A stretch of DNA of 39,859 bases from Melioribacteraceae bacterium (lineage in GTDB: Bacteria > Bacteroidota > Ignavibacteria > Ignavibacteriales > Melioribacteraceae). The translations under genes and the position numbers were made by a program. Below the pieces are notes generated by a model. The model had not been told where the DNA came from and ran no database searches. It worked only from the letters and a program-made list of their open reading frames with translations. The stretch covers positions 1 to 39,859 of the forward strand of contig JAEINS010000034.1 in assembly GCA_016342755.1 (NCBI GenBank), written 5' to 3'. Positions 11,996-35,885 of the stretch are shown in pieces. The first letter of the stretch is position 1. Every line of letters starts with the position of its first letter.

Positions 11996-12007
11996 GGATT
12001 ATTATTG

Positions 12008-13801: not shown

Positions 13802-14577
13802 AAATAAAGTTATTATTACTGTCTCTTATTGTTGTAACCTTGTGGCAGGGCTGTGCTCCTCCAAAACAGATTTCAAAAGAGAGTGAAATTCCTGCTGAAA
13901 GATTAATAAAAAAGCTTGAAGGAAGCAGAAGAAAAATTAAAACTTTTGAGGGTACAGGTGTTCTTAATATAAAAACTGAAGAATTAGGTCAGGTAAAAGC
14001 TAATTTTCACGTTGTACTAAAAAAGCCCGATTCAATTAAAGTTTCGATATATGGTCCGTTTGGAATTGATTTAGCTCATATTCTTGTAACAAATAATAAA
14101 TTTAATTTTTACGAAGTTCAGGAAAACAAACTTCATATTGGAAGAACTAATAATAATATGTTGAAAAAGATTTTTAAAATTGATCTTTCATTTGCTGAAT
14201 TAATTGACGCGTTTGCCGGATCTGTAAATTTAACGGATAAACTTTCAAGAATTCCGGATGATTATCAGTCATCTGAAAGTGAATATTTTTTGAGTTATAA
14301 AAATGGAGACGGTAAAAAAACTAATTATTCAATTGATATGACTGACTTAGCAATTAAGGAATTCTCAATTGAAAATGAAAACGGAAGTAAAATTCTGGAA
14401 GGAGTTTATTCTAATTTCAAAAAAGTAAAAGATGTTTCTGTTCCTTATCATACAGTTCTGGAAAATGAAGGAAATGATCAAAGTATTACAATTGATTATC
14501 GCAGAATAAAAATTAATAATGAAATTGAGTCGGTTGCAATTTCTTTACCAAATGATGTTGAAACAATTAGATGGTAA
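13798..14577 (+). CDS. DUF4292-family (LolB-like) lipoprotein
   Basis: 259 residues, GTG start overlapping the previous stop by four bases. A lipoprotein signal ends at LWQGC (C19). The body matches the DUF4292 pattern of Bacteroidota-type genomes: KIKTFEGTGVLNIKT, FHVVLKKPDSIKVSIYGPFG and ILVTNNKFNFYE, the strands of a half-barrel like that of LolA/LolB, which carry lipoproteins or lipids. A lipid- or lipoprotein-handling role at the outer membrane is inference. It overlaps the envC-like gene by seven bases, so the three upstream genes of the run are coupled. Confidence 0.78.
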   Translation: MKIKLLLLSLIVVTLWQGCAPPKQISKESEIPAERLIKKLEGSRRKIKTFEGTGVLNIKTEELGQVKANFHVVLKKPDSIKVSIYGPFGIDLAHILVTNNKFNFYEVQENKLHIGRTNNNMLKKIFKIDLSFAELIDAFAGSVNLTDKLSRIPDDYQSSESEYFLSYKNGDGKKTNYSIDMTDLAIKEFSIENENGSKILEGVYSNFKKVKDVSVPYHTVLENEGNDQSITIDYRRIKINNEIESVAISLPNDVETIRW

Positions 14578-15782
14578 AATTGAATAAAATATTGCTTATG
14601 CTTTTCTTTGTTGTGAATGTGTTTTTTGCGCAGAATACTGATGAAATAACTGAAAATAAAAAAGAACTCGATGAACTTCGTACTCAGATTACTAATCTGC
14701 AAAAGACGCTTGACAATAAAACCTCCTCTGAAAAAAAATCTTACTTGGCTTTAGAAAATATCAATCAGCAAAATTTGCTTTTAAAAAGACTGGTTAGAAA
14801 AATTAAAAGGGAAGAGCAAAATAAAATAAATGAAATTGGAAGGTTAGAAACCGAGATTACCGGTTATGAAAACGGGATAAAAAAATTAAGAGAAGAATAT
14901 TCAAAATATGTTATCTGGCAATATAAGTATGGTAAAAAAGGAGAATTGGAGTTTTTACTAGATTCTGATTCCTTTAATCAGGCAATGAACCGCTTAAAAT
15001 ATTTTAGTTCAATTACAGAAGCAAACAAAACAAAACTGGTAAATTTAAAAGAAAGCGTTTATACCTTAAAAGAATTAAAAGCTAAATATAAATCTGAAAA
15101 AAAAGAACAATCAATTCTGTTATCCGAAAAGGAAAAGGAACAGCGGAATATTGAAATTAAGAGATCTGAGAAGCAGAACTTATTGAAGGAATTGAAAGAG
15201 AGCAAAGAAGATCTAAATGAAGAGATAAATCAAAAAAGATTAGCCGAAGTTGCAATTAATGAGTTGATAACAAAACTTGAAGAAGATGAGCGAAAACGAC
15301 TTTCAGCTATTCAGACAGAAAAATTAAAAACTGGTAAAAGCCCTTCTGTAATTACTTTTAACTATAATAAGTTATCAGATTTTACTAAATTAAAAGGTAA
15401 ATTATCGTGGCCTGTTGAAGGTGGTACGGTGAAAAGGAAGTTTGGTGAAATTGAGAATAAAAAACTTAAGACCAAAACCTGGAACTACGGCATAGATATA
15501 GAAGCTGGAAAAAGCAGCGATGTGACTGCCGTGGCCGAAGGCTACGTATCGGCAATTAAATGGATTCCGGGGTATGGAAGTGTTCTTATACTGACTCATA
15601 AAAATAGCTTCAGGACTGTTTACGGTCATCTTGATGACATTATTGTAGGCGAAGGTGACAAAGTGGATTTCGGAACAAAACTTGGTACTGTAAACGAAAG
15701 TATTGAGGGAAGTCTGTTACACTTTGAAATATGGAATTCCAGGAATTATCAAAACCCAGAACTTTGGTTAGTTAAAAAATAA
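14571..15782 (+). CDS. EnvC-like murein hydrolase activator (degenerate M23/LytM)
   Basis: 403 residues. Signal peptide (ends NVFFAQN), then a long coiled coil (about residues 25-250) rich in K/E/L heptads, then a C-terminal LytM/peptidase M23 domain (about 280-403). Active LytM enzymes bind zinc through HxGxD and HxH. Here the first motif is NYGID (N305 replaces His, D309 kept) and the last is LLHFE (L382 replaces His, H384 kept). With two zinc ligands lost the domain should not cleave peptidoglycan. This coiled coil plus dead LytM is the EnvC plan, which activates amidases at the division site. The next gene (GTG, 12 bases on) starts the glycan set. Confidence 0.88.
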   Translation: MVKLNKILLMLFFVVNVFFAQNTDEITENKKELDELRTQITNLQKTLDNKTSSEKKSYLALENINQQNLLLKRLVRKIKREEQNKINEIGRLETEITGYENGIKKLREEYSKYVIWQYKYGKKGELEFLLDSDSFNQAMNRLKYFSSITEANKTKLVNLKESVYTLKELKAKYKSEKKEQSILLSEKEKEQRNIEIKRSEKQNLLKELKESKEDLNEEINQKRLAEVAINELITKLEEDERKRLSAIQTEKLKTGKSPSVITFNYNKLSDFTKLKGKLSWPVEGGTVKRKFGEIENKKLKTKTWNYGIDIEAGKSSDVTAVAEGYVSAIKWIPGYGSVLILTHKNSFRTVYGHLDDIIVGEGDKVDFGTKLGTVNESIEGSLLHFEIWNSRNYQNPELWLVKK

Positions 15783-15794
15783 AATAGTATACTT

Positions 15795-17060
15795 GTGGGC
15801 AAAAATAGAATCCAAACAAATCAATCTTTTATTAAATACTTACTTAGTATTTTAAATAATGGGCAATATATTTTTTATATGTCTTTTATTGAACGACTAT
15901 TGTATTTCTTATTCTTTGTTGTATTAGCTAGAAGTCTTGAAACATTACAATATGGAATAATTATTTCGATTTTTGCTTTTGCAAATATTACAAATATGTT
16001 CTTTAATTTCGGATTACCTATTCATTTTCAAAGACTGACTGCTAAATCCAAAAATAAAATGCGAGAACAGTTTTTTAGTGGTTTAATAATTAAAATTTTG
16101 GGGTTATTCTTATTCATAATTATTAGTTTAATTTATTATAATTTTAGCAGTTTTAATCACTCCAATATTTATATCTTAATTGTAATTCCAATATACATTT
16201 TTGGAATAAATTCTTTCCTACAGCACATATTTTTTGGTGATAATAATTTTAATAAAGTGTTCAAGCCATTTATTATTGCTAGGGTGATTTTTGTCACTCA
16301 TCTTTCTCTATTTTATTTTAAATTCATTTCCCATGAGGTTCTATTCTTTGGATTCTTTGCAATCTCGGTTTTAGAATTAATCTTATTAGCAAAATCATTA
16401 TATAATGAAAAGATACATTTTTTTATGAAAGTAATTGATATAAATGAAATTAAAGATATATTAAAATCTTCAACTCCTATCGGATTTGGATTATTTTGCG
16501 TAATGATGTATGATAAAATTGATATTCTCCTAATTGAAAAAATTTTAAACTTTGAACTGGTTAGTTACTATGCTGTGGCTTATTCAATTTATAAAATCCC
16601 TCAAATTATTAGTTCTTCAATTTTAGTACCGTTCTTTTCTGATCTTTCTAGTAAAAATGCTGATAATAGTTATATGGAAAAAATTAAAGAAATTGCCCTT
16701 ACATTACTTGCAATTAGTCTTCTCATAATTATAATAATCTATTTTGTTGGAGATTTTATAGTAGCCATTACTTTTGGAGAAAAGTATTTAAGTTCTTCTT
16801 ATTTTTTGAAAATTTTGAGTATTGCATTGCCATTTCTATTTTTAAATAACCTTACTGGAGTGGTCTTAAATTCAGTTGGATTAGAGAAAAAAGCTTTTAA
16901 ATCAGCTGCAATCGCTAGCTTCATTAATATATTATTGAATATAGTTTTACTCAATCTGTGGGGAATTATTGGAGCCATAATTTCGACTATTGTTACTGAA
17001 TTTATAATATTATTGATTCAATTATTTTATATTAATCAAAAACGGGAGATCTTAATTTAA
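15795..17060 (+). CDS. Wzx-type polysaccharide flippase
   Basis: 421 residues, nearly all hydrophobic, with about 12 membrane helices: the MATE/MOP-superfamily polysaccharide exporter layout that flips undecaprenyl-linked oligosaccharides to the periplasm. The first helix region (MSFIERLLYFLFFVVLARSLE) and the segment YDKIDILLIEKIL are typical of the family. The start is a GTG without a clear ribosome-binding site; the in-frame ATG at 15879 would remove 28 residues. No Wzy polymerase or ligase was seen in the window. Base composition drops sharply here: 16081-16140 has 8 G+C in 60, against 18 in 60 at 13081-13140 (counted by hand). Confidence 0.85.
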   Translation: MGKNRIQTNQSFIKYLLSILNNGQYIFYMSFIERLLYFLFFVVLARSLETLQYGIIISIFAFANITNMFFNFGLPIHFQRLTAKSKNKMREQFFSGLIIKILGLFLFIIISLIYYNFSSFNHSNIYILIVIPIYIFGINSFLQHIFFGDNNFNKVFKPFIIARVIFVTHLSLFYFKFISHEVLFFGFFAISVLELILLAKSLYNEKIHFFMKVIDINEIKDILKSSTPIGFGLFCVMMYDKIDILLIEKILNFELVSYYAVAYSIYKIPQIISSSILVPFFSDLSSKNADNSYMEKIKEIALTLLAISLLIIIIIYFVGDFIVAITFGEKYLSSSYFLKILSIALPFLFLNNLTGVVLNSVGLEKKAFKSAAIASFINILLNIVLLNLWGIIGAIISTIVTEFIILLIQLFYINQKREILI

Positions 17061-17759
17061 ATGAGTAGTTATTTTTCTTCACAATATTCAAGAATTAATG
17101 ATATCAATTTAAATGATAAAGAAGGTATAAGTAATTGGTATTTAAAAAATTTGGAAAGTTATTCATATGAATTCTCTAATTTGAAAATAGATTTTGAAAA
17201 TAAAATAATATTAGAAATTGGATGTGGAATTGGAGGATTTTTATATTATCTGAATCATAAAGGTATTTCCAATTTTTTAGGAATCGATATTGATGAAAAA
17301 CAAATATCAGTCTGTAAGCAATTTGTAACACCAAAAGTTATTTGTAAGGATGTATTTGAATTTTTGGATGAAACGAATGAAAAATTTGATGTTATTGTTA
17401 TGTTTGACGTGATTGAGCATATAAAAAAAGATAATATAATTCCTTTACTTAAGGAGATTAATAATATATTAAATAAAAATGGTCTCTTAGTTTTAAGAAC
17501 TCCTAATATGGCTAGTATGACATCCTTCTATTCAAGATACCTTGATTTTACTCATGAAATAGGTTTTACTTCAGAAAGTTTAGAATATGTATTGAATGAG
17601 ACAAACTTTAAGAATATTTCGTTTAGTAATTCTGCAATTGGTAGGAAAAGAATATTCGTAACAAAATTAATTACAAAGTTTATTTTCAATTTACTGAGAT
17701 TCCCAGCCCCTAAAATATTCACTTCAAATATATTAGCGGTTGCAAAAAAAATAAAATGA
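17061..17759 (+). CDS. SAM-dependent class I methyltransferase
   Basis: 232 residues. The AdoMet-binding motif I is LEIGCGIGG (51-59), followed by the acidic end of strand 2 (LGIDIDE), and motif IV appears as VMFDVIEHI; the order is that of class I methyltransferases. Such enzymes in surface-glycan clusters methylate sugars or their lipid-linked precursors. The ATG lies directly after the flippase stop and the end overlaps the next start (ATGA), so it is coupled on both sides. The acceptor is unknown. Confidence 0.85.
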   Translation: MSSYFSSQYSRINDINLNDKEGISNWYLKNLESYSYEFSNLKIDFENKIILEIGCGIGGFLYYLNHKGISNFLGIDIDEKQISVCKQFVTPKVICKDVFEFLDETNEKFDVIVMFDVIEHIKKDNIIPLLKEINNILNKNGLLVLRTPNMASMTSFYSRYLDFTHEIGFTSESLEYVLNETNFKNISFSNSAIGRKRIFVTKLITKFIFNLLRFPAPKIFTSNILAVAKKIK

Positions 17760-18853
17760 AGATATTATTGATTGGTAGTTATTCAGACGAGTCATGTATC
17801 CCGGCACCATTAAAAGTCGCTAATTCTTTATTTAGGGAATTTGCAAATAAGGAGCATCATGTAAAATATTTTACATATTTTGATGATGGATTTAAATATA
17901 CTAGAATTCAGAAATTCTTTGGGAAAGAAAAGATTGCTAATAGAATTTATAGATTCGGAATATTTCCGCTATTAAGAGAAACAATTAGTTTTAAACCAGA
18001 TATAATTCAAATTGTAAATGCTGAGGCATTTTATTTACCGATCTACTCTTTAAAAATAATTTTAAATGTTAAAATTATTTATTTAGCTCATAGCAATGTG
18101 GAATATTTATTAAAGAATGCGTTACACTTAGATCGTTATTCAAAATATAGATTGAAAACTATTGAATTTTTTAATTCTAATTTTAGTGATAGAATTTTGG
18201 TGTTGTCGAGACGTGAAAGCTTTTTGTATTATAAAAGACTCAAAAAAAAGGGAAGTTTGATTGTTGTTGATAATGGTGTTTCTGAGCACAAGATTATTAA
18301 GACAAACTTTAAATATTCAAAACCATTCAAAATAATTTTAATCGGTTCTTTTTATAGAAAAGAGAAGGGAATAGATATTCTAATAAATACTCTGGAGCAA
18401 CTTGGTTTAGATTTAGAACTTACGATTTGTTCTTATGATTTAAACAGCGTCGAGGATTATAAATTTAATAAAAATATTTTGATCAATTTAAAATATGGTC
18501 TAAATGAAAATGATGTCCTTTGTGAAATTAGAAGCAATGACTTATTAATTGTTCCATCTAAATATGAACCATTTAGCTTAGCGTTACTTGAGGGAATGAG
18601 TACTGGAACTCTATTTTTAACTACATCAAGAGTAGGGTTTTCAGAAAGATTACCAAAAGAATTAAAAAGATTTATTTACGATATTAACAATGAAAAGGAA
18701 TTGTTATATAAAATTATTGAAATAATAAATATGGATTTAAACGAAAAAGTAAATTTTTCGAATATGATTAAAGATTTTAGTATAAAGTTTAGTTGGAATG
18801 AAGTTGCTGATAAATACTTAAAAATTTATACGGATATTCTGAATGGCAAATAA
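17756..18853 (+). CDS. Family-4-type glycosyltransferase
   Basis: 365 residues. GT-B fold signs: an N-terminal MKILLIGSYSDES nucleotide-fold strand and loop, and the C-terminal donor-binding motif NDLLIVPSKYEPFSLALLE, with the spaced E...E pair of GT4 enzymes. The usual GxxxxxKG segment is seen as IGSFYRKEKGIDILI. It overlaps the previous gene by four bases and the next by 11. It should add one sugar to the growing surface oligosaccharide at the cytoplasmic membrane. Donor and linkage are unknown. Confidence 0.87.
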   Translation: MKILLIGSYSDESCIPAPLKVANSLFREFANKEHHVKYFTYFDDGFKYTRIQKFFGKEKIANRIYRFGIFPLLRETISFKPDIIQIVNAEAFYLPIYSLKIILNVKIIYLAHSNVEYLLKNALHLDRYSKYRLKTIEFFNSNFSDRILVLSRRESFLYYKRLKKKGSLIVVDNGVSEHKIIKTNFKYSKPFKIILIGSFYRKEKGIDILINTLEQLGLDLELTICSYDLNSVEDYKFNKNILINLKYGLNENDVLCEIRSNDLLIVPSKYEPFSLALLEGMSTGTLFLTTSRVGFSERLPKELKRFIYDINNEKELLYKIIEIINMDLNEKVNFSNMIKDFSIKFSWNEVADKYLKIYTDILNGK

Positions 18854-19823
18854 CAATTTACCTGATATCTCAGTAATAATGCCGGTTTATAATTCTGAAT
18901 TATACTTAAAAGAGGCGATTGATAGTATATTAAATCAGACTTTTCAAAATTTTGAATTTATAATTGTGGATGATGGATCAGAGGATAATTCCAAAAAGAT
19001 AATAAAAAGTTATAAAGATGATAGAATAAGGTTTTTTGAAAGGGAGCATCTAGGGATAGTTAATCAGTTAAACTTTGGGATTAAAAAAGCAAGAGGGAAA
19101 TATATTGCTAGAATGGATTCTGACGATTTGTCATTATCTAATAGATTAGAGAAGCAGTTTGAATATTTACAAAAATTTCCAAATGTAAAATTAGTTGGTA
19201 CAGACATAAAAATTATCAATGAAGATAGCAAAGAAATTTATATAAGGAACTATCCAAAGACAGCCGCAGAAATTGAATATCAGATGCCAATTTATAGTGC
19301 ATTTTGTCATCCAGCTATAATGATAGAAAAAAAAACAATAATCTCTTTTAATGGGTATGATGAAAAATTGGAATCGGCAGAAGACCACATACTATTTTTA
19401 CAGATGTTAGAGAATAGTATTGAAATGAGGAATTTGTCAATGACTCTTCTAAAATATAGAATTCATATGAAGTCTGTTACAAGTAAATTTAATAATGTTC
19501 AAAATGATTTGTCATATTCCTATGGAAAAAAATACCTTGAGAAAAAATTAAATAATGCAACAACAGATAAAGAAAAATTGAGCTTGTTAGTAAGACTAGG
19601 TTTGCTCGAATATTATAGAGGAGAGATGCCAATTGCACGAAAACACTTTCTTAATGCTATATCAATAAAACCTATTAAGATTTTCACTTTACATAGGTAT
19701 CTGTTCTTATCTCTTTTTGGAACTAGAATGGTAAAATATCTTAGAGAAAAAAAAATCTTATCTAAATTTAATTATCTAATAGTAAAACTATTTAAGTATG
19801 ATACGCATAAAATTAAAAGTTAA
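18843..19823 (+). CDS. Family-2-type glycosyltransferase
   Basis: 326 residues. GT-A fold: VIMPVYNSELYLKEAIDSI with FIIVDDGSEDNS near the N-terminus, the metal-binding DxD as MDSDD in KYIARMDSDDLS, and AEDHILFLQML later, where a catalytic Asp is usual. The C-terminal 90 residues are helical and basic. It is coupled to the genes on both sides (11-base overlap before, two-base gap after). It transfers a nucleotide-activated sugar to a lipid-linked acceptor; the specific sugar cannot be told. Confidence 0.9.
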   Translation: MANNNLPDISVIMPVYNSELYLKEAIDSILNQTFQNFEFIIVDDGSEDNSKKIIKSYKDDRIRFFEREHLGIVNQLNFGIKKARGKYIARMDSDDLSLSNRLEKQFEYLQKFPNVKLVGTDIKIINEDSKEIYIRNYPKTAAEIEYQMPIYSAFCHPAIMIEKKTIISFNGYDEKLESAEDHILFLQMLENSIEMRNLSMTLLKYRIHMKSVTSKFNNVQNDLSYSYGKKYLEKKLNNATTDKEKLSLLVRLGLLEYYRGEMPIARKHFLNAISIKPIKIFTLHRYLFLSLFGTRMVKYLREKKILSKFNYLIVKLFKYDTHKIKS

Positions 19824-19825
19824 TT

Positions 19826-20905
19826 ATGCAAAATAAAAAAAAGATACTGCATATAATACTTAGATCATCTTATGATGGAGCTTCAGTTTTACCGGTTAGG
19901 GTTATTCGGCATCTGCCTGAGTATGATCATAAAATTGTCTCTATATTTAAAGGGGCGTTATTTGAAGAAACGGAAGAAGAAATTAATTATGATCATCTAA
20001 TAGAAAGTTCTGAAATAGATAAGTATTCAAAAACTAAAATTTTAAGCTTTTTAATTTTTCTATTAAAAAACAAATTTGATATTATACATTATCACTGTGG
20101 TGGTGTTAGTTTACTCTTTTTGTCTCTTTTATTTAGAAAAAACGCTAAGATAATTCATCATATTCATAGTGGTGTGATAAGTGGTGATAACAATGCAAAA
20201 GATATATCAGTTTTTCATAAATTATTGTATAAAATATTAGATAAAAAAACTATCAAAATTGCATGTGCAGAGCATGTGTATGATTTTTATAGGAAAAATA
20301 TAAATTCGGGTGATGAAATATTCCTAGTAAAAAATGCAGTTGAAAAAATAAATGAATTAAATAAAAAACAAGTTTACGGAATAGGTTATCTAGGAAGAAT
20401 AACCAAAGAGAAAGGTATAAATATTGTTTTTGATCTAATTAATAACAAAAAAAAATTACCCTCGAGACTTAATTATTATCTTAAAGGAGATGTGAATTTA
20501 GCAGTTGCCGAATTTGATAGATTTAGAAATAGTTATAATAACTATTATTCAGAACCAAGTTTAGATGTTGATGATTTTTTTTCTAAGGTAGATATTTTAT
20601 TGTTTCCATCGATTGCTAGTGAAGCATTGCCATTAGTAGTATTAGAAGCGGTTTCTCATAATGTTGCAGTTGTTTTAGTAAAAGATAAATGGTCGGTAGA
20701 AATATTTGGAGAATCTTATCCATTCTATATTAATGAAACAAATAAAGTTAATTCTATTATTGAAATGATTAACAAATACTATCAAAGTAGAGAATTAAGA
20801 GATGGTATAATTAGTCTTTATAGACAAATAAATGATAAATACAATTTTCAGAAAATGATTGAGAGTCTAATAAAAATATACAATGAGAATTCTGCATCTA
20901 AATAA
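19826..20905 (+). CDS. Family-4-type glycosyltransferase
   Basis: 359 residues, GT-B fold. The N-terminal Rossmann half begins KKILHIILRSSYDGASVLP. The second half has GYLGRITKEKGINIVFDL and the donor-binding motif DILLFPSIASEALPLVVLE, as in GT4 enzymes. It differs clearly in sequence from its neighbours, so it is not a recent duplicate. It overlaps the next transferase by 23 bases, a longer overlap than elsewhere in the run. Confidence 0.86.
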   Translation: MQNKKKILHIILRSSYDGASVLPVRVIRHLPEYDHKIVSIFKGALFEETEEEINYDHLIESSEIDKYSKTKILSFLIFLLKNKFDIIHYHCGGVSLLFLSLLFRKNAKIIHHIHSGVISGDNNAKDISVFHKLLYKILDKKTIKIACAEHVYDFYRKNINSGDEIFLVKNAVEKINELNKKQVYGIGYLGRITKEKGINIVFDLINNKKKLPSRLNYYLKGDVNLAVAEFDRFRNSYNNYYSEPSLDVDDFFSKVDILLFPSIASEALPLVVLEAVSHNVAVVLVKDKWSVEIFGESYPFYINETNKVNSIIEMINKYYQSRELRDGIISLYRQINDKYNFQKMIESLIKIYNENSASK

Positions 20906-21941
20906 TGAACTTAGTATTTCATGCGGTGTTACAAGATCGATAATTAATATTTGCAACTATTCTAAGAATGAGCATAAATGCTATATAATTGCCTTAAAAG
21001 GGAATGCAGCTGAAAGATTAAATCAGAATAACATGGATTTTAGGTTTTATAACTCTGCTTTCCCAGATCCTATTAGATTTTTAATCGTAATATATAAAAT
21101 TTATTTATTTTGTAAGAAAAACAAGATTGATGTAATTCATGCTCATCACAGATACTTTGATTTAATAGGGTTTATTATTTCTAAAACTTTAAAAATTAAA
21201 ACTGTAACTTCAGTTCATAGTAAAGTTTATTGGAAGAGAATTTTAAGTTATAAAGCGGATAAAATAATTGCCGTAAGTGAGGCTGTAAAAAAACATCTTA
21301 TAAATAATTTTAACCTTCCTATTACAAAAATATCTGTTCTAAATAATTTTATTGATCCAAATAAGATTAATATTAGCAAGAAAAAAGATGAACTACTTAA
21401 AGAACTTAAAATTGATTCTGAAAAAAAAATCTTGCTGTTTTCTGGTAGATTGAGCAGAGAAAAAGGTTTAGATATTTTATTAAAGGCATTTGATAGTATT
21501 TTTATAAATAATAAAAATATTGTTCTTTTAGTTATCGGAGATAGTGAACTAAACGAGGGTTCACAAAAATTTATTGAAGACAAAAAGGATTCAGTTGTTT
21601 ATATAGAGTCTCAAAAGGAAATTTTTAATTTTATAAATATTGCTGACTTAATAATTTTACCTTCCAGAACAGATTCATTCCCATTTGCAATGCTTGAAGC
21701 TGGTTTTCTTAAAAAAGCTATAATTGGATCAAGAGTAGATGGAATTGCTGAGTTTATAGAAAATGAAGTTGATGGAATTCTCTTTGCTTCAGAAGATGTT
21801 GAAGAACTTAGTGATAAAATAAATTTATTATTGAGTAGACCTGATAAATGTGTTAAGCTTGGTGAAAATTTATACAGAAAAGTAAATACGTTGTCAGGTC
21901 AAAAAATTATTAGAAAAATTATAGATTTATATAAATATTAA
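20883..21941 (+). CDS. Family-4-type glycosyltransferase
   Basis: 352 residues, GT-B fold. The start MRILHLNNELSISCGVTRS is the acceptor-side loop of GT4 enzymes; later come LLFSGRLSREKGLDILLKAF and the donor site region LIILPSRTDSFPFAMLE. In this last motif the first of the two glutamates is replaced by Asp (DSFPFAMLE), a conservative change. The segment VIHAHHRYFDLIGFI holds the His region common in the family. A 24-base gap follows before the WecG/TagA gene. Confidence 0.87.
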   Translation: MRILHLNNELSISCGVTRSIINICNYSKNEHKCYIIALKGNAAERLNQNNMDFRFYNSAFPDPIRFLIVIYKIYLFCKKNKIDVIHAHHRYFDLIGFIISKTLKIKTVTSVHSKVYWKRILSYKADKIIAVSEAVKKHLINNFNLPITKISVLNNFIDPNKINISKKKDELLKELKIDSEKKILLFSGRLSREKGLDILLKAFDSIFINNKNIVLLVIGDSELNEGSQKFIEDKKDSVVYIESQKEIFNFINIADLIILPSRTDSFPFAMLEAGFLKKAIIGSRVDGIAEFIENEVDGILFASEDVEELSDKINLLLSRPDKCVKLGENLYRKVNTLSGQKIIRKIIDLYKY

Positions 21942-21965
21942 CGTCATAAAAGATTATGCTAAAAC

Positions 21966-22745
21966 ATGATTACTTACTTTGGAAAAAATATTTACAAAAT
22001 TTTTGAATTTAATTTTGTTGATCTAGACTATACTGAGATTATATCTATTATTGATGAAGTTATTAAAAAAAATGATAAATTAAGAATTTTTAATGTAAAT
22101 GCATCAATAATTTTAAAAGCTCTTAGTTCTCCAAGTTTATTAAATAATTTTAAAAAACAAAAAATTGTATTCATGGATGGTATCGGAGTTTTTATTGCAT
22201 TAAAATGTCTATTTGGGTTTGGTACAATAAAGCATAGAGTTACCGGTACTGATTTATACTATAAATTAATGGAATATGCTGATATACATAAGCTTAGAGT
22301 TTTTTTTATTGGTGGTTGCGAAGAGGCTGCAAGTAAAGTTGAGAGTGTACTAGAAACGAAATTTCCTAATATAGGTTTTTGTGGAGTTTTAGATAGAAAT
22401 AATTACGAAAAAAATGATTATAAAGAAATATTAAAACAAAAAAAACCTCATCTATTATTTGTTGGTTTAGGAACTCCCAAGCAAGAGGATTTTATTTGTA
22501 ATACTCTGGATGATCTCGATATTCCAATACAATTGGCAGTTGGAAGTGGAATTGAATTTCTTGCTGATCATATTAAAAGGGCTCCAAAAATATTTAGAAT
22601 ATTTGGAATTGAATGGCTGTTTAGGTTATTTAAAGAACCACAAAGGTTATGGCGAAGATACATTATTGGAATACCGCAATTTACTTATTTAATATTTAAA
22701 ACTTACATTAGTAATAAATTTAAATTTTCGGGAGAGGGTAAGTGA
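21966..22745 (+). CDS. WecG/TagA/CpsF-family glycosyltransferase (GT26)
   Basis: 259 residues, full length for GT26. Family signatures: MDGIGVFIALK with the catalytic-type Asp, RVTGTDLYYKL, FFIGGCEEAASKVE, LFVGLGTPKQEDFI, and the basic C-terminal stretch RAPKIFRIFGIEWLFRLFKE followed by a Pro-Gln-Arg segment. Family members add an N-acetylmannosamine-type sugar to an undecaprenyl- or prenyl-linked GlcNAc, the second step of several surface glycans. The initiating enzyme is not in the window. The stop overlaps the GTG start of the PorU-like gene by four bases, physically joining glycan synthesis to the secretion-linked peptidase gene. Confidence 0.92.
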   Translation: MITYFGKNIYKIFEFNFVDLDYTEIISIIDEVIKKNDKLRIFNVNASIILKALSSPSLLNNFKKQKIVFMDGIGVFIALKCLFGFGTIKHRVTGTDLYYKLMEYADIHKLRVFFIGGCEEAASKVESVLETKFPNIGFCGVLDRNNYEKNDYKEILKQKKPHLLFVGLGTPKQEDFICNTLDDLDIPIQLAVGSGIEFLADHIKRAPKIFRIFGIEWLFRLFKEPQRLWRRYIIGIPQFTYLIFKTYISNKFKFSGEGK

Positions 22746-25700
22746 AAATAATTTTATTAGTTGGTTTGATTTTTTCTTCTGTCCTTTTTTTAAGCGCCAG
22801 AGAAACAGAAATATTGAAGTCGAACAAGGGGTTTATCGTAAAAGTAAAAACTGAAACCTTAAAATATAATGATATTAAAAAAGGCAAATTTACATTACGA
22901 GAATATTTTGAATATAACGAAATAAATAATTCTGATTTTAATGTGCCACAAAGTGTTATTTATATTGCACTTCCAAAAAGTTCTAAACCGGTTTTTAGAG
23001 TAATAAATCTTAAAAAAGAGTCACTCAACAATGTTTATCTAGGGAAAAGTAATAAAGTTGGGCAAGTAGAATTAAATTCTGAAAATATTCTTAGTATGGA
23101 CGAAATACCGACCAATATAATAGAATTAAAAGGTTACTCTTTTATAAAGGATAATTATTGCGCAGTTATTAAAATTAATCCCATAATAAACAAAAGTAAC
23201 AGTTTATTTAATGTTAGTGAATTTGATATTGAAGTAATATTCGATAAGAATTATGTGATTAAAAAAGAAAAAAATGATAAAGATAGAGTTTCAGCTGATT
23301 ATTCAAATGTGTTTTATAATAATGACATTGCACAAAGCTTCAAAAGTAGAACAGGAGCGGTAGTAAAGAGTAAATCTGATTGGATTGAATGGGGAAATGA
23401 CTATCTAAAAATTACTGTTGGTGAGGACGGTATATATAGAATAAGTAAAGCTGATTTAATTAACAATGGAGTAAGTGTTAGTTCGATAAATCCGAAATCA
23501 TTTAAACTATTTTCTAGAGGTAAAGAAAACCTAATATTTGTTAATGGTGAAGAGGATAATTCTTTTGATGATTTTGATTTTATAGAATTTTATGGGTCTA
23601 AAAACTATGATTCTACTGATCACAGAATATTAAATGGTGTTGGAGAGCAGGCATATGAATATTTAAATAGATATAGCGACTCTACAGTTTATTGGCTTAC
23701 ATGGGGGACCGAAGAAGGAAAGCGTTTTTCTGAAAATATGATCACCGATGCTACTGACACACTCGATTATTATACAGAAATTATTCACCAGGAAACAGAT
23801 AGATTTCTTGATAATAAGGAAACAAGTTTACTTGCACAAGAAAATACAGAATGGTTAGAAAAAGAAACATGGATTTACGGGAATCACAATGTTGGTGAAA
23901 GAAGTCACAAGTTTGATGCAGATAACATTGTTCCTGGTAAAGTAGCGAGTGCCTACTATAAAGTGATTAGTTTGGCAACTGATATAACAAATAATGCTCA
24001 TAAACTAGGGCTTAAAATTAATGATAATGAAAGTATACATGATTCAAGTTTTATTAATAAATATGAGCAAAAAATACTAAAAGCCGAATTTAATTCAGAT
24101 CAATTATTAGAGGGTCAAAATAATATTAAATCAATATCTTTTCAAACTGATGCTTCAATTAACACTGTTCAGGAGGATTGGTTTGAAGTTGAGTATCCAA
24201 GATATTTACATTTTTCTACTGATAAAATGATTTTTGCATTTAACCAGGAATTGAGTTCTAAAGATTATGTTGTAAAAATAGAAAATGTTGATTCTGATGA
24301 TGTGCTTATATACAAAATTGAACCAGAAATTAAACTCATTCGAAATTTTACTGTAGTTAATTCCATTTTAACATTTACTGATTCAATTGCACAAGGTGAT
24401 AAATATATAATTATCAAAAAAGACTTTGTAGCAAAACCAGAATTTTATGAAGTAAGAAAATTCACAAATTTATTACAAAATAATAACCAAGCAGAGTATA
24501 TATTACTAACTAATAGATTGTTCAAGAACACAGCAGAAAAATATTCTCAATTCATTTCAGAAAATTATTCCATAAGTTCTAAGGTAGTTTATGTAGACGA
24601 TATTTATAATCAATTCAATTATGGATTTTTTGCACCAGAACCGATAAGAGAATTCTTAAAATTAGCTTATGATAACTGGCAGGAACCTAAACCAAAATAT
24701 TTGTTTATTGTAGGTGAGGCAAATTACGACTATAAAAATGCAAGAAAAATCGAACCATATGTACCTAATATAGTTCCCTCATTTGGCCATCCAGTTTCGG
24801 ATGTTTGGTTTACAGTTTGGGATTCCATTAGCCATGTACCTCAAATGATGGTAGGAAGATTGCCAGCAATCAAACTATCTGAATTTGAACATTACTATAA
24901 TAAACATGAAGCTTATTTAAACACTCCATTTGACGAATGGAATAAATCTATTCTATTATTCTCTGGAGGAAAATCTAATTATGATCAAAACTTCACGAGA
25001 ACTATAAACAATAGGTTAAATGATAATATTTTTACTCAAAAGCCAATTGGTGGTTATGTTCAACACTTTTATTCAACTTCAAATCCAAGATCTAATTTTG
25101 GACCATTTGATAATACTTTTGTTGATAGTGTAATTAATAATGGAGCTGTTATAACTTCTTTTGTTGGTCACAGTGGGACTAAAATTTGGGATAATGGGAT
25201 AGAAGAAGTTAATCAATTAAAAGCAGGAAATAATAAGAAATCTTTTATTACTGATTTTGGCTGTTCCACTGGTAAATTTGGTGAACCTGATATTGTTTCT
25301 TTTTCTGAAGCATTTACCAATGGTTTAGAAGGAGATGCAATAGGTTATGTCGGTAATTCTTCTCTAGGATTCAGCTCAACTTCTTCACTCTTTCCAAGTA
25401 TGTTTTACGAAGAACTAATTAGGTCTGAATTTTCAAATGTTGGTGAAGCACATTTAAATGCTAAGATTAGATTGATTACTCAGTATGGTTTATCTGATGT
25501 AAATAAAGTTTTTCTGTATTGTAATAATCTATTCGCTGATCCAGTTATAAGTTTATCGATCCCTAAAAAAATAAACCTCAACATTAAAAATTCTGATATT
25601 GAGCTAGACAAAATAATTGATGATAATCAGGATTCAACTAATATTTTTGTTAAGTATAGAAATTTAGGATTAGTTGATACAAGCAATTTGGTGATTAGGA

Positions 25701-28006
25701 TAACCGATATCTTCAATAAGGAAGTGATTTTTGAAAAGATTATATTAAAGGATCTGCCATTTAATGAAGATTCTTTTAGCTTAAATATACCTGTTAAAAA
25801 CCTCAGTGGGTTACATGATATAAGTATATCATTAGATTATGAAAATAAAATTGATGAAATTAATGAGGAAGATAATTCAATTAACTTTAGTTTTAATGTT
25901 ATAACATCTCGAATTAGAAATCTAATTTCAGAAAACGAATTACTAATAGGAAATGGTAAATTTAATCTTCTTAATTCATTAAATAAAAGTGTAAGCAACA
26001 GCCTTATTGTACAGATCGATTCCACATCTGAATTCAAGAATCCTACTGAAAACTATTTTGAATTAGATACATTATTTACATCAGTTTATTTTTCGAACTT
26101 AATTGAAGGACAAAGATATTGGATAAGATTCAAATTAAACACTCCAGAGAGTGTTTTTTTGGAAACATATTCTTTTTTATTTGATCCTGCAAAAAACATT
26201 GATATTGGAATTAGCGATTTACATTCATTTAGTATTCAAAAAACTGAAAATCTAGTTTGGAGTGAAGATGGGATATCTGTTGGTGATATCCCAATTAAAA
26301 TTGAACTAGCCTCAACAGGTTTTGAAGATGGAGGAATAGCAACTATTAAAATCGATGGTACTGATTATCCGAATAATCCTAGAGGGTGTGGTTTTCATAA
26401 TGTTGTTATCAATAAAGAAACTTTTGAAATGGAAGAATATACATGGTTTAATTTTTGGGCTCCAGTAGATAATTATGATGAATATTATTCATTTTTAAGT
26501 CGAGTTCCAAATGATAAATTTCTTGCAATAAGTATAAGTGGTTCTTGTGGTGGATATAATCTGCCAGATTCAGTAATAACTTTGCTAGAATCATTTGGAA
26601 GCTTAGAAGCACAAAATATTAAGTGGGCCACTGCATGGATACTGTTCGGTGAAAAAGGAGCGGAAATTGGTAGTGTCCCTGAAGAAATTTCGTTTTCAGA
26701 AAAAGTTGAATATGATACAACATTTGTTATTAGAGCGAAATCTGGGAATATACTTACAAAAAAAATAGAATATATTGAGAAAATAAATAGTATCGAGTTT
26801 GATGTTAATTTGCCTGTGGGAACACAATTAAGTAAGTATGTGATACTTAATAGAAAATCCAATATTGATACTCTAGGGATTGAAAGTCCAGAGGGTTTTA
26901 GTTTTGAGACTCCTTCTGATTTATCAAGTATTCAATTTGCTGTTAACTTTGAAGGGAATGAAAATTTAGAGTTTCCAACACTTAATAATATGATTCTCCA
27001 TTCAGATTTATTTCCCGAACTTGCAACCAACTATCAAGTTGTCTCTTTAGAAAAAGATACACTTCAGCAAGGAGAAAATGCTGAACTTGAATTTTGGGTT
27101 TACAATGTTGGAGAATCTCCAGCGGATAGTTTTGATGTTAAAGTAGAAGTTCAATCACCGGATAATACTAAAGATAAAATTTTTGAACAAATGGTTGCCT
27201 CAATTGATAGTATGGGCAGAAAAAAGTTTCAAGTTAGTTTTCCTACTGCCGCAATTAATGGGGATAGAACATTTCTAATTTCGATTGATCCAGAAAATAA
27301 AATCCGTGAGTTATATGAAGACAACAACTATTACTCAATTCCATTTTTCGTAAAAGGGGACACAACAAAACCATCATTAAATGTAACGTTTGACGGACAG
27401 GATATTTTTGATGGTGATTATATAGCTATAAACCCAAATATAAAAATTGAATTAAGCGATCCGTCACTGATACCAATTACCGATACAACCGGAGTTGATA
27501 TTTATTTGAACAATAAACGTATCAGTTATTCAATAAATGCTTCAAACCTTACATATACATTTAATCAGGCTAATCCTAAATTTGTAGCTGAGTACAGACC
27601 TGAATTAGAGGATGGAGAATACGAGTTAAAAGTATTAGCTAAAGATGCATCCGGGAATGAAGCCGATTCATCTGGCTATATTAAAAAGTTTACGGTTTCA
27701 AGCGAAGCTAAGTTGTTGTACGTTTATAATTATCCTAACCCGTTTAGCGAAGAAACATATTTTACTTTTAAACTAACACAGATTCCGGAAGAGATTGAGA
27801 TTAAAATCTATACAGTTGCTGGTCGTTTAGTTAAGATAATCAAAATGGATGCTGCGGAACTTAGCTATGATTTCAATAAGATATATTGGGATGGAAAAGA
27901 TGAAGATGGCGATGAACTTGCTAACGGAGTTTATCTTTATAAAACTATTATGAAAACAGCCGATAAAACTGAAAGCACTGTTCAGAAACTAGCTATTGTT
28001 AGATAA
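22742..28006 (+). CDS. PorU-like C25 cysteine peptidase/T9SS sortase with extra domains
   Basis: 1754 residues, GTG start, signal peptide to about residue 20. Order: beta-rich N-terminal region with WIEWGNDYLKITVGEDGIYR as in PorU; gingipain-type C25 domain (about 560-940) with H810 in FVGHSG and C841 in DFGCSTGKFG; a CARDB-like domain (about 945-1055); a domain at about 1190-1320 with GCGFHNVVINKE, DKFLAISISGSCGG and KWATAWILFGEKGAEIG that resembles ILEI/PANDER (FAM3); a second CARDB-like domain (about 1430-1540); and a C-terminal T9SS/FlgD-Ig-like domain starting at YNYPNPFSEE (about 1661-1754). PorU removes cargo sorting domains and attaches cargo to lipopolysaccharide. It is longer than Porphyromonas PorU (about 1150). 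It could instead be a PorU-related paralogue or secreted gingipain-like protein. Confidence 0.82.
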   Translation: MKIILLVGLIFSSVLFLSARETEILKSNKGFIVKVKTETLKYNDIKKGKFTLREYFEYNEINNSDFNVPQSVIYIALPKSSKPVFRVINLKKESLNNVYLGKSNKVGQVELNSENILSMDEIPTNIIELKGYSFIKDNYCAVIKINPIINKSNSLFNVSEFDIEVIFDKNYVIKKEKNDKDRVSADYSNVFYNNDIAQSFKSRTGAVVKSKSDWIEWGNDYLKITVGEDGIYRISKADLINNGVSVSSINPKSFKLFSRGKENLIFVNGEEDNSFDDFDFIEFYGSKNYDSTDHRILNGVGEQAYEYLNRYSDSTVYWLTWGTEEGKRFSENMITDATDTLDYYTEIIHQETDRFLDNKETSLLAQENTEWLEKETWIYGNHNVGERSHKFDADNIVPGKVASAYYKVISLATDITNNAHKLGLKINDNESIHDSSFINKYEQKILKAEFNSDQLLEGQNNIKSISFQTDASINTVQEDWFEVEYPRYLHFSTDKMIFAFNQELSSKDYVVKIENVDSDDVLIYKIEPEIKLIRNFTVVNSILTFTDSIAQGDKYIIIKKDFVAKPEFYEVRKFTNLLQNNNQAEYILLTNRLFKNTAEKYSQFISENYSISSKVVYVDDIYNQFNYGFFAPEPIREFLKLAYDNWQEPKPKYLFIVGEANYDYKNARKIEPYVPNIVPSFGHPVSDVWFTVWDSISHVPQMMVGRLPAIKLSEFEHYYNKHEAYLNTPFDEWNKSILLFSGGKSNYDQNFTRTINNRLNDNIFTQKPIGGYVQHFYSTSNPRSNFGPFDNTFVDSVINNGAVITSFVGHSGTKIWDNGIEEVNQLKAGNNKKSFITDFGCSTGKFGEPDIVSFSEAFTNGLEGDAIGYVGNSSLGFSSTSSLFPSMFYEELIRSEFSNVGEAHLNAKIRLITQYGLSDVNKVFLYCNNLFADPVISLSIPKKINLNIKNSDIELDKIIDDNQDSTNIFVKYRNLGLVDTSNLVIRITDIFNKEVIFEKIILKDLPFNEDSFSLNIPVKNLSGLHDISISLDYENKIDEINEEDNSINFSFNVITSRIRNLISENELLIGNGKFNLLNSLNKSVSNSLIVQIDSTSEFKNPTENYFELDTLFTSVYFSNLIEGQRYWIRFKLNTPESVFLETYSFLFDPAKNIDIGISDLHSFSIQKTENLVWSEDGISVGDIPIKIELASTGFEDGGIATIKIDGTDYPNNPRGCGFHNVVINKETFEMEEYTWFNFWAPVDNYDEYYSFLSRVPNDKFLAISISGSCGGYNLPDSVITLLESFGSLEAQNIKWATAWILFGEKGAEIGSVPEEISFSEKVEYDTTFVIRAKSGNILTKKIEYIEKINSIEFDVNLPVGTQLSKYVILNRKSNIDTLGIESPEGFSFETPSDLSSIQFAVNFEGNENLEFPTLNNMILHSDLFPELATNYQVVSLEKDTLQQGENAELEFWVYNVGESPADSFDVKVEVQSPDNTKDKIFEQMVASIDSMGRKKFQVSFPTAAINGDRTFLISIDPENKIRELYEDNNYYSIPFFVKGDTTKPSLNVTFDGQDIFDGDYIAINPNIKIELSDPSLIPITDTTGVDIYLNNKRISYSINASNLTYTFNQANPKFVAEYRPELEDGEYELKVLAKDASGNEADSSGYIKKFTVSSEAKLLYVYNYPNPFSEETYFTFKLTQIPEEIEIKIYTVAGRLVKIIKMDAAELSYDFNKIYWDGKDEDGDELANGVYLYKTIMKTADKTESTVQKLAIVR

Positions 28007-28044
28007 ATATTAATTTGAATAAATTTTAATAACAAGGAATATAA

Positions 28045-29391
28045 ATGAAAAAAATATTGTTAATTCTTTTTATTGTTGCCGCGTTTCCTTTGTCAGCTCA
28101 ATATTATCAGATTCAGCAGGATGAAGGATTAATAGGCGGGGGATTAGGAGTTACCTGGATTGACGGTCAACCGCATTACGCAATGAGATTTTTCCCGGAG
28201 TTTGCATTTAATAACTTTGGGATCGGCTTAGATCTTAAACTGGAATATGATTCTAATGGAAAGATAAGAACTGAAAATTTTAATACTACATCAGATTATT
28301 TAAGTATAATCAGATATCTCCGCTATGGACAGAAAAATGATCCGGTTTATGTGCGTCTTGGAGCACTGGATTACGCAACTCTTGGACATGGCAGCATTAT
28401 GTACATGTATAATAACAGTCCGGGTTTTGACAATAGAAAAATTGGAATGGAGTTAGACATCGATTTCAATTACTTCGGGTTTGAATCTGTTTATGGAAAT
28501 TTTGGTGAAGCCGGATTACTTGGATTACGCGGTTATATACGTCCCTTAAAAGTAACCGAATTACAGAATACTCCCATTATAGGCAATCTTGAAGTTGGTG
28601 CTTCGGTTGTAACCGATTTCCACGGTAATGCTGGTGTGTTATCCGGATTTATTAATGATGCTAAAAATGGAGAATTTGAAGCGCTTACAGATGCAGGAAC
28701 TATAAGTATAATTGGATTCGATCTTGGTTTGCCAATCTTAAGAACCAGACTGGTAGATTTTGATCTATACTACGATTATGCAAAAATAATTGATTATGGA
28801 AGTGGTTCAGCTCTAGGAGCAATATTTAAATTTAAAGGATTCGGAGTAGTTGATGTTTGGACTAAGTTTGAAAGACGCTGGAATGGCGACCAGTATATTC
28901 CGGCTTATTTTAACTCGATGTACGAAATTGAAAGATTTAAGTTTGACAGAAAGGATAATGCAGTACGAAGCAAGATTCAGCAGTTAGAATCGATGGAATC
29001 TGTTGGTGATGGTTTTTATGGAGAGTTATTGCTTAGACTTGTTGGTACATTTAATATAATTGGTAGTTACCAGAGACTGGATGATCATCCGGATTCCGGT
29101 ATTCTTCATCTCTCGGCTGATATTACTCCTGAAGGCTCAACTTATTTGGCCAGAGCCGGATATGATAAAATTAATATTCGTGATGAAAAAGATTTATTTA
29201 AACTTGATGATCGTTCATATTTATTCGTAGAGTTTGGATATAAACCTATGTCGTATGTAATAGTTTCGATGGTTTATAATTGGACCTTTACACCTGAGCG
29301 GGATGCTGATGATATGGTGATTGGCTATAAACCGCAGAAGAAAATTGAACCAAGAGTTTCGTTTGTTTATCCGTTAAACTTTGGCGGGTAG
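28045..29391 (+). CDS. Outer-membrane barrel protein of unknown function
   Basis: 448 residues with a signal peptide ending LSAQ. The chain is a series of amphipathic strand-like segments with glycines and aromatics, for example ALDYATLGHGSIMYMYNN and FVEFGYKPMSYVIVSMVYNW, typical of a large outer-membrane barrel. It lacks the PorV/FadL signature seen in the product of the 9514 gene, so it is not called PorV even though porV often follows porU in Bacteroidota. It has an AAGGA ribosome-binding site and begins 38 bases after the PorU-like stop, so it is probably the last gene of the run. A REP-like palindrome follows, and a convergent gene ends at 29462. Confidence 0.65.
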   Translation: MKKILLILFIVAAFPLSAQYYQIQQDEGLIGGGLGVTWIDGQPHYAMRFFPEFAFNNFGIGLDLKLEYDSNGKIRTENFNTTSDYLSIIRYLRYGQKNDPVYVRLGALDYATLGHGSIMYMYNNSPGFDNRKIGMELDIDFNYFGFESVYGNFGEAGLLGLRGYIRPLKVTELQNTPIIGNLEVGASVVTDFHGNAGVLSGFINDAKNGEFEALTDAGTISIIGFDLGLPILRTRLVDFDLYYDYAKIIDYGSGSALGAIFKFKGFGVVDVWTKFERRWNGDQYIPAYFNSMYEIERFKFDRKDNAVRSKIQQLESMESVGDGFYGELLLRLVGTFNIIGSYQRLDDHPDSGILHLSADITPEGSTYLARAGYDKINIRDEKDLFKLDDRSYLFVEFGYKPMSYVIVSMVYNWTFTPERDADDMVIGYKPQKKIEPRVSFVYPLNFGG

Positions 29392-29398
29392 GTTTAAA

Positions 29399-29424
29399 TG
29401 TGTCAGAACTGAGGTTCTGACACA
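29399..29424 (+). repeat. REP-like palindrome 4 between convergent genes
   Basis: Perfect 11-base arms (left arm TGTGTCAGAAC) around loop TGAG. It has the same GTCA...GAA...loop...TTC...TGAC plan as the copies near the window start but a different arm, again fully paired. It lies between the convergent barrel and HAD genes and may also stop transcripts from both sides, though T-runs are weak. Confidence 0.6.
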
Positions 29425-29461
29425 ACATAAAGAAACTTCAGTAAAAAAAGATTTCCCAGAT

Positions 29462-30109
29462 TTATATAGATTTCAGAATGAATTCTTTTAGTTCCCCGAC
29501 TGAATGAAAATAATAATCACTTCCCATACCTAAAACTTCTTCTTTTGCATAACTATCCCAAACAACCGATGCTATCTTAGTGCCGGCACCCTTTGCCGCT
29601 ATTATATCTGCCGGAGCATCTCCAATCATAAGAACATTTTCTTTCTTCAAATCAAAACGATTTACAAAACTAGTAATGGCTTTTGCCGATGGCTTTGGCT
29701 CATCTATATCGTCACCGGTTAATATCGGATCAAAGTAATCGTAAATTCCAATATGGTTAAGGGTTATTTCAGAAGACTTTCTTCCTTTACCGGTATATAT
29801 TCCTAAATGAATTTTTTTCTTATAAATCATTTCTACAATTTCTTTCATTCCGGGATAAATATCTGCCATAGCTAAATGATTCTGATTATAGAATTCATAA
29901 TAATCAGAACATGCGTTATCATAATTATTGCCCATTATATCTTTCAAAATAACATTTTCAGTCGGGCCAAAAAGCGCAACTATTTCTTCATAAGTATAAG
30001 TTCGTTCCAAATACTTTTCTGTTACATGATTAAATGAAGCAATTATTAATTCATTTGTTGAGGTTAATGTTCCATCAATATCAAAAATGATTCCGTCAAA
30101 TTTTTTCAT
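29462..30109 (-). CDS. HAD-superfamily phosphatase (phosphoglycolate phosphatase/beta-phosphoglucomutase type)
   Basis: 215 residues. HAD motif I is FDIDGTLT (nucleophile D10, acid D12); motif II lies in LGIYTGKGR; motif III lysine in EPKPSAKAI; motif IV is MIGDAPADI. A helical cap sits between motifs I and II (about 15-85), as in subclass I enzymes such as Gph, PpaX and PgmB. Substrate not decidable. It begins six bases after the stop of the propeller gene on the same strand, so both share one transcript. Confidence 0.9.
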   Translation of the reverse strand: MKKFDGIIFDIDGTLTSTNELIIASFNHVTEKYLERTYTYEEIVALFGPTENVILKDIMGNNYDNACSDYYEFYNQNHLAMADIYPGMKEIVEMIYKKKIHLGIYTGKGRKSSEITLNHIGIYDYFDPILTGDDIDEPKPSAKAITSFVNRFDLKKENVLMIGDAPADIIAAKGAGTKIASVVWDSYAKEEVLGMGSDYYFHSVGELKEFILKSI

Positions 30110-30115
30110 AATACC

Positions 30116-34761: not shown

Positions 34762-34776
34762 ACTAAAGGAAAATTT

Positions 34777-35809: not shown

Positions 35810-35870
35810 TGTCATTCTGAGGAGTGAAACGACGTGAGAATCTCCATTTTTTTAGATTCTCTCTTTTTTG
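35810..35870 (+). repeat. Interspersed intergenic repeat (GTCATTCTGAGG... type) with a terminal hairpin
   Basis: The segment opens TGTCATTCTGAGGAGTG, continues AAACGACGTGAGAATCTCC, and ends with arms GAGAATCT (35836-35843) and AGATTCTC (35854-35861) followed by a T-run (35864-35869). This wording matches a small repeat found between genes in many bacterial genomes (recalled by eye). The last part can form a second terminator just upstream of the subtilisin gene. Confidence 0.5.
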
Positions 35871-35885
35871 ATTATAGGTAATTAT

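Follow-up and report, generated by a model that had tools for sequence, protein, structure and literature searches.

The window analysed here is the whole of a 39,859-nucleotide contig (C50) from the 4.73 Mb genome assembly of a Melioribacteraceae bacterium of the class Ignavibacteria, referred to below as G000. Our subject is a block of eight genes on its + strand, at positions 15795-28006, in which genes for the assembly and export of a glycan are followed by the gene for a 1754-residue protease of the C25 type that resembles PorU, the sortase of the type IX secretion system (T9SS). In Porphyromonas gingivalis, PorU cuts off the C-terminal signal of its cargo and attaches the trimmed protein to an amine carried by a special sugar of anionic lipopolysaccharide (A-LPS), which PorZ supplies (PMC10202324, PMC13086638). 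The chemistry of T9SS cargo anchoring has been solved for P. gingivalis, Tannerella forsythia, and Prevotella intermedia, with differences in the linking sugar between the three (PMC11969387).

Gene content of the block

Pfam and NCBIfam scans identified the genes of the block as follows, with each start taken as the first start codon of its frame (aa, amino acids; SAM, S-adenosylmethionine; GT, glycosyltransferase family):

15795..17060, + strand: Wzx-type polysaccharide flippase (421 aa), opening the cassette; Pfam PF01943, E 1.1e-18
17061..17759, + strand: SAM methyltransferase (232 aa); Pfam PF13489, E 1.6e-20
17756..18853, + strand: GT4-type glycosyltransferase (365 aa); Pfam PF00534, E 5.4e-14
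18843..19823, + strand: GT2-type glycosyltransferase (326 aa); Pfam PF00535, E 4.6e-35
19826..20905, + strand: GT4-type glycosyltransferase (359 aa); Pfam PF00534, E 3.8e-11
20883..21941, + strand: GT4-type glycosyltransferase (352 aa); Pfam PF00534, E 1.2e-32
21966..22745, + strand: GT26 (WecG/TagA/CpsF) glycosyltransferase (259 aa); PF03808, E 1.3e-44; TIGR00696, 116.8 bits, cut-off 69
22742..28006, + strand: PorU2-like C25 protease (1754 aa); Pfam C25, E 2.3e-60
26390..26662, + strand: ILEI/FAM3 domain within the PorU2-like gene; E 8.4e-11

The flippase gene follows an EnvC gene at +12 bases, and the junctions downstream of it measure 0, -4, -11, +2, -23, +24, and -4 bases, the last being a GTGA at 22742-22745 that is shared by the stop of the GT26 gene and the start of the protease gene. 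The open reading frame coordinates and Pfam matches thus agree with the preliminary description of this DNA in coordinates, strand, gene order, short junctions, and the terminal overlap. That description had also pointed to the lack of a terminator inside the run. A consensus scan of 11500-31000 returned 7 terminator-like sites, five of them inside 15795-28006, against 6.0 in shuffled sequences, so this argument carries no weight; scans for terminators and promoters alike were at or below chance level and are uninformative.

The protease is a PorU paralogue

The last gene of the block had been described as PorU-like, but it is not the PorU of this genome. The canonical PorU of G000 lies on another contig (C18), where a canonical PorV comes after it (274.9 bits, cut-off 250), and scores 990.7 bits on the NCBIfam PorU model NF033707 (positions 1-1094), which rules out the window gene as the genome's PorU. 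The window protease reaches 306.8 bits on NF033707 (cut-off 420); its best-scoring NCBIfam family is NF052324, putative PorU2, at 433.6 bits (cut-off 450, a value passed by none of the 197 genomes of the class that we analysed). Judged from its sequence, it is a paralogue of PorU nearest to PorU2, and we refer to it and its relatives as PorU2-like. Canonical PorU is found above its cut-off in all 32 genomes examined from the same family and order.

The protease comprises a C25 domain (residues 586-938), an ILEI domain (1217-1307, Pfam E 1.1e-9), a CARDB domain (1434-1532), and a FlgD_ig domain (1670-1734), and its N-terminus resembles, by eye, a signal peptide. Residues H810 and C841, which we take to be the catalytic pair of the C25 domain, line up in 43 of 43 proteins, canonical PorU among them. 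The window gene matches positions 875-1094 of the PorU model (E 1.9e-27), indicating a PorU-like C-terminal domain. A full-length profile built from 16 relatives has PorU (6za2) as its best match among solved structures (E 3.4e-32), strongest in the C-terminal region 931-1154, and also matches the pro-domain of gingipain R2 and FAM3.

These features bear on whether the enzyme transfers cargo at all. C25 peptidases such as the gingipains are plain proteases, and the PorU2-like protein could be a surface protease, or an enzyme processing C-terminal domains, that is held by, or itself processes, a cassette-made exopolysaccharide or capsule. Its ILEI domain could then merely tether it to the glycan, it has a PorU-like C-terminus of its own, and the canonical PorU-PorV pair is available for ordinary cargo. 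Against this stand the match of the full-length profile to PorU ahead of all other solved structures, and the PorV2-like barrel genes that adjoin PorU2-like genes in some other families, as PorV adjoins PorU in G000. We consider this explanation rather unlikely, while giving it serious weight. PorV2 itself was tried as a tell-tale partner of PorU2 and dropped, because its model NF052325 finds some match in 197 of 197 genomes, none over the cut-off; the best PorV2-model match listed for G000 is on contig C6 and does not adjoin the window gene.

Two further groups of C25 proteins were observed. One, of about 1900-1936 aa, scores under the PorU cut-off and lies, in genomes that also carry PorU and the cassette PorU2, at places distinct from both (G173:C5, G130:C28, G125:C20, G119:C1:2162400, G180:C1:3031440, and G183:C1:2987498). 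The other occurs in family f8 (G132:C74, G178:C77, G097:C323, and G070), where PorU2-like genes of about 1620-1640 aa occur several to a genome, clustered or scattered.

Linkage of porU2 with the glycan genes

A comparison of gene order across the class, which the preliminary description had called for, shows that the neighbourhood of GT26 and PorU2 recurs. Strong PorU2 proteins were defined as listed matches down to E 4.8e-89, a threshold picked after inspection of the list. Among the 197 class genomes, 79 have both a strong PorU2 and GT26 (PF03808), 6 have PorU2 only, 19 GT26 only, and 93 neither; GT26 is therefore present in 79 of 85 genomes with strong PorU2 versus 19 of 112 others (Fisher p 6e-29, kinship ignored). 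The two genes lie less than 10 kb apart on one contig in 65 of the 79, where about one would be expected by chance, and nine of the 14 exceptions belong to family f4. As for the six strong-PorU2 genomes without GT26, the gene is at a contig end in G157, G096, and G175, and G052, G081, and G120 are assemblies of 440-540 contigs. Within the nearest 32 genomes, strong PorU2 occurs in 22, of which 21 have GT26; the latter is single-copy in 21 of the 22 genomes that carry it, and in G000 the window gene is the sole match. Nine of these 32 have no ILEI-bearing PorU2 of any kind, and GT26 is absent from eight of them, G093 being the exception.

Where at least 4 kb of upstream sequence was available, GT26 lies upstream of porU2 in 32 of 35 class-genome loci and in 43 of 48 named loci. 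The named loci are the best 80 of 446 places and partly overlap the class-genome loci, which means that the two counts are not independent; neighbour genes in these surveys are labelled by blastp best hits, not by family scans. The nearest named loci come from metagenome-assembled genomes, mostly labelled Ignavibacteria, Ignavibacteriales, Ignavibacteriaceae, Melioribacteraceae, or Bacteroidetes, with a few others. One named locus with the cassette (L098) comes from a cultured relative, Stygiobacter electus 09-Me. GT26 is oriented opposite to porU2 in 5 of the 32 and 8 of the 43 loci, so the neighbourhood is kept even where a single transcript is impossible. The proposal that glycan and sortase-like genes form one unit therefore holds in part: they behave as a unit with limits running from the flippase to the PorU-like gene, but shared transcription is not conserved. 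The remaining glycosyltransferases vary, and representatives of the clusters include UDP-galactopyranose mutase, GT9, GT2, GT4, and two proteins without a family.

Canonical porU served as a control. At the porU-porV locus of G000 no glycan gene was seen in 20 kb, and in 14 canonical porU loci (20 kb each, one 14.6 kb) blastp found a flippase, glycosyltransferase, or mutase gene in none. The coupling of the PorU2-like sortase gene with the glycan genes is well supported. At one locus (L048, 13089-18231, genome G153), porU2 is split over frames (1188, 232, and 353 aa), and glycosyltransferase and GT26 genes remain upstream.

Natural deletions of the block

The preliminary description had drawn the module wider, at about 12.0-29.4 kb, and the additional genes are indeed present where it placed them:

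12005..15782, + strand: TPR, LolB1/DUF4292, and EnvC/M23 genes, upstream neighbours that lie outside the module and persist in genomes without the cassette (the DUF4292 gene scores as LolB1, 77.5 bits, cut-off 50)
28045..29391, + strand: downstream gene, the putative barrel of the preliminary description; no Pfam family; often adjoins porU2

Further downstream follow a HAD gene, a BamB-like gene on the opposite strand, LepA, two signal peptidases, and two proteins with Por_Secre_tail domains (35868-37883 and 38294-39814), the latter confirming the two T9SS cargo genes reported earlier.

The TPR-LolB-EnvC locus was fetched from genomes that lack PorU2. Six were informative (G086, G066, G135, G145, G165, and G191; the downstream flank of G066 gave no recognisable gene), G073 was informative in part, with one other gene before the contig end, and the contigs of G058 and G093 end at EnvC. 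By blastp, no intact flippase, glycosyltransferase, or GT26 gene follows EnvC in the six informative genomes or in the part of G073 that is seen. TPR, LolB, and EnvC are retained in genomes without the flippase-porU2 block, and the flanks close up: the barrel gene comes 56 bases after EnvC in G086 and 27 bases after it in G165, and the HAD gene 106 bases past EnvC in G145. Altogether, the barrel gene is kept without the block in G086, G165, and G135, the HAD gene in G086, G145, G165, and G191, and a subtilase-type gene after LepA and S26 in G086, G145, and G191. Retention in block-less genomes rules out counting TPR-LolB-EnvC, the barrel gene, or the two cargo genes as parts of the module, and neither the wider run nor a tie of the downstream cargo genes to it can be upheld.

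G135 also shows how the block may have been lost. Here (L157, 15289-15690) an open frame fuses a stretch of the flippase to the final 57 residues of PorU2, and with the preceding reading included the flippase part covers approximately residues 15-114. This wzx::porU2 frame is, to go by its sequence, the scar of a single deletion from wzx to porU2. In G140 the block is absent at EnvC and an ILEI fragment lies at a contig end elsewhere, and in G157, the PorU2 of which is at a contig end, a flippase comes immediately after EnvC.

On a tree of TPR, LolB, and EnvC, from which G106 was left out for having too few columns, seven changes of state were counted for the cassette. Where branches are well supported, independent pairs show GT26 changing the same way in 4.6 of 5 cases and never in the opposite way. 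G140 was first scored as cassette-less; leaving it out gives six changes and four starred pairs instead of five, with GT26 going the same way in 3.8 of 4.

The glycan genes might instead be an ordinary O-antigen or exopolysaccharide island that came to stand beside porU2 by chance, the linkage being nothing but vertical inheritance of neighbours. The glycosyltransferase content does differ between genomes, 19 genomes have GT26 and no strong PorU2, f4 keeps the two apart, and support is weak on many branches of the tree (9 of 24 starred). The losses speak the other way: the glycan genes are missing from the locus in 6 of 6 informative PorU2-less genomes, and in a seventh for as much of the locus as its contig shows, and 8 of 9 have no GT26 anywhere in the genome. 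Moreover, GT26 stays beside porU2 despite changes of orientation and is still there when not adjacent (G149 and family f4). We hold a chance association to be very unlikely.

The ILEI/FAM3 domain

Against solved structures, an ILEI profile built from 22 sequences hits FAM3C (E 1.6e-21) as well as the stem of POMGnT1 (E 7.9e-19). AlphaFold2 models of the domain reached a mean predicted confidence (pLDDT) of 91.7 for a relative (L085) and 89.4 for the window, and chains of the POMGnT1 stem are the best fold match for both (target TM score of 0.76-0.77 for the window). Sugar binding has been demonstrated for the POMGnT1 stem, FAM3A, and FAM3C, and POMGnT1 binds its sugar through Arg129, Asp179, and Arg207 (PMC9802357); a module of a phage tail, CBM_1, keeps two of these residues (PMC9437275). 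In 103 PorU2-like proteins, that of the window included, residues matching Arg129, Asp179, and Arg207 occur in 29, 62, and 74, respectively, and the residue at the place of Arg129 gave no clear signal of covariation with the presence of UDP-galactopyranose mutase. The modelled ILEI fold suggests that the PorU2-like family may bind glycans. The domain is not seen in canonical PorU from these genomes. ILEI matches occur in 123 of the 197 class genomes and, among the matches listed, lie mostly in open reading frames of PorU2 size.

PorU2-like loci outside the group

We also inspected 20 ILEI-bearing PorU2-like loci of our own, non-random choosing: 18 from the 26 positive genomes outside the class (two of them, G207 and G296, fall under the Pfam cut-off) and two from within it (families f16 and f17). 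Family scans place an O-antigen ligase next door in L180 and L192, a GT4 glycosyltransferase in L181, L187, and L194, a weak Wzy match under its cut-off in L191, and in L177 an epimerase after WcaJ and Gmd genes, a layout that L178, L179, and L190 share by gene lengths. A flippase-like gene adjoins L184 and L195 by blastp. The neighbour is PorV2 in L186 (427.3 bits, cut-off 325) and similar by blastp in L182, L183, and L185. Overall, a known or likely glycan gene is adjacent in 12 loci, a PorV2-like barrel in 4, and neither in 4. In f16 and f17, related proteins of 447 aa (L188, 7466-8809) and 507 aa (L189, 9101-10624) are encoded directly before the PorU2-like gene, the former with no match in Pfam or NCBIfam.

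Chemistry of the glycan

In enterobacterial common antigen or wall teichoic acid, GT26 enzymes act on a lipid carrier made by WecA or TagO. G000 has one PF00953 gene (369 aa), which is probably MraY, because each of the 32 nearest genomes carries one of 369-396 aa. Pfam and NCBIfam scans, confined to the eight cassette genes, named neither a Wbp/Vim-type gene nor a polymerase. With no aminoacyl-sugar gene or polymerase in the cassette and a single PF00953 gene in the genome, the start of the glycan and its amine would come from elsewhere or be different. A dedicated UDP-GlcNAc 2-epimerase (PF02350) found no support as the source of the GT26 donor: it scores over its cut-off in 25 of the 32 genomes, made up of 18 among the 22 that carry PorU2 and 7 among the 10 others (G140 is counted with the latter).

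Alternatively, the cassette could make a general O-glycan or lipopolysaccharide for many proteins, with PorU2 as one user among others. Genes of the O-antigen ligase type are general, being found in 31 of 32 genomes, and in P. gingivalis a linker attaches cargo to a subset of the ordinary O-LPS (PMC13086638). Nearby PorU2-less genomes are nevertheless without the cassette at the locus, and GT26 is absent in 8 of 9; a generally needed glycan does not predict such an absence, and we judge a shared glycan of this kind to be distinctly improbable.

Proposed mechanism

We favour, with some reservation, the reading that the block is a co-inherited cassette for a glycan and for a second T9SS sortase, the glycan probably being what this enzyme anchors cargo to. 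The joint inheritance and loss of PorU2 and the glycan genes suggests that the latter make the tether used by PorU2; the chemistry, the linking sugar, and the cargo are inferred. As the gene families would have it, the glycosyltransferases and GT26 would build a lipid-linked oligosaccharide, which the methyltransferase may modify or cap and the flippase would carry across the inner membrane, and general machinery encoded elsewhere would take the glycan to the surface. PorU2, by homology to canonical PorU, would be exported by the T9SS via its own C-terminal domain and stay on the surface, where its His-Cys centre would cut the sorting domain from some cargo and join the new C-terminus to an amine of the glycan. 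The ILEI/FAM3 domain may hold the glycan in cis, as a built-in counterpart of PorZ.

Several observations weigh against this reading. The window protease misses the cut-offs of both NCBIfam PorU models. All three of the POMGnT1 sugar-binding residues occur in just 21 of the 103 PorU2-like proteins, and the ILEI domain of the window has none of them; the three residues do not support its own copy as a binder. Nineteen genomes carry GT26 and no strong PorU2, and with ILEI as the marker instead the association loosens (both 86, ILEI only 37, GT26 only 12, neither 62), several families keeping an ILEI-bearing protein without GT26. All 9 genomes of family f4 that have both genes keep them apart, and in G149 they are on separate contigs with the block not at EnvC. 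By blastp, GT26 is found in 0 of the 20 PorU2-like loci outside the group. The pairs on the tree are so few (4-5) that a sign test cannot reach 0.05. Finally, no VimA-like or aminoacyl-sugar gene is named in the window or among ten cluster proteins from relatives, two of which are without a family.

A more specific version holds that PorU2 is a glycan-matched sortase: every lineage would have a variable glycan cassette of its own and an ILEI domain adapted to the glycan that this makes, the tether would be swapped by gain, loss, or replacement of the cassette, and canonical PorU would serve other cargo. We offer this tentatively, as an unlikely extension.

Relation to known systems

The PorU/A-LPS system of P. 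gingivalis, with its Wbp/Vim pathway and A-LS linker, shares with the locus a C25-type protease with a retained C-terminal domain. Unlike in P. gingivalis, the glycan genes here adjoin and go with the sortase gene, the sortase comes as an additional copy that carries an ILEI domain, with canonical PorU encoded elsewhere, and no Wbp/Vim-type gene is named in the cassette. To our knowledge, P. gingivalis has no linkage of glycan genes to the sortase gene. PorU2 of NF052324, compared by model name and scores only, is the best NCBIfam match of the window protein, yet one that falls short of its cut-off. The exosortase/PEP-CTERM and rhombosortase systems resemble the locus in that a sorting enzyme is encoded with glycosyltransferase genes. 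Exosortase is unrelated to the C25 protease, and, unlike exosortase, the enzyme here is a T9SS C25 protease that would be located at the outer surface. Exosortase is embedded in the inner membrane, and systems of its type are proposed to transfer the C-terminus to an unidentified, perhaps sugar, compound (PMC7468200). The ILEI domain of the window shares fold and profile with the POMGnT1 stem and FAM3, which are compared here together with the phage CBM_1; unlike in POMGnT1 and FAM3, it is fused to a bacterial C25 protease, and the key residues are kept in some lineages, whereas the window has none of the three. In the literature searched, which had subscription papers outside its scope and was represented mostly by search listings and otherwise by excerpts, neither the name "PorU2" nor the linkage of a sortase to a glycan cassette was found described.

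If a sortase is bundled with its probable anchor pathway, anchor genes become predictable, also in lineages without genetics, and deletion of the single block would test this; the locus itself supplies natural deletions for comparison. Such a bundle would further point to a naturally occurring sortase that has its own sugar-recognition domain, an enzyme of use for surface display. In Melioribacter roseus, most enzymes bearing carbohydrate-binding modules (CBMs) have Por sorting domains and cellulase activity is cell-bound, according to the genome paper (PMC3534657), and these CBM-bearing enzymes are natural candidate cargo.

Other features of the window

Two S26 signal peptidase genes stand in tandem after lepA, at 33898-35703. 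At 9502-10956, the window encodes an OmpP1/FadL-type protein that is above the cut-off for Pfam Toluene_X and under every NCBIfam cut-off, its best NCBIfam score being that of BamG (68.8 of 250).

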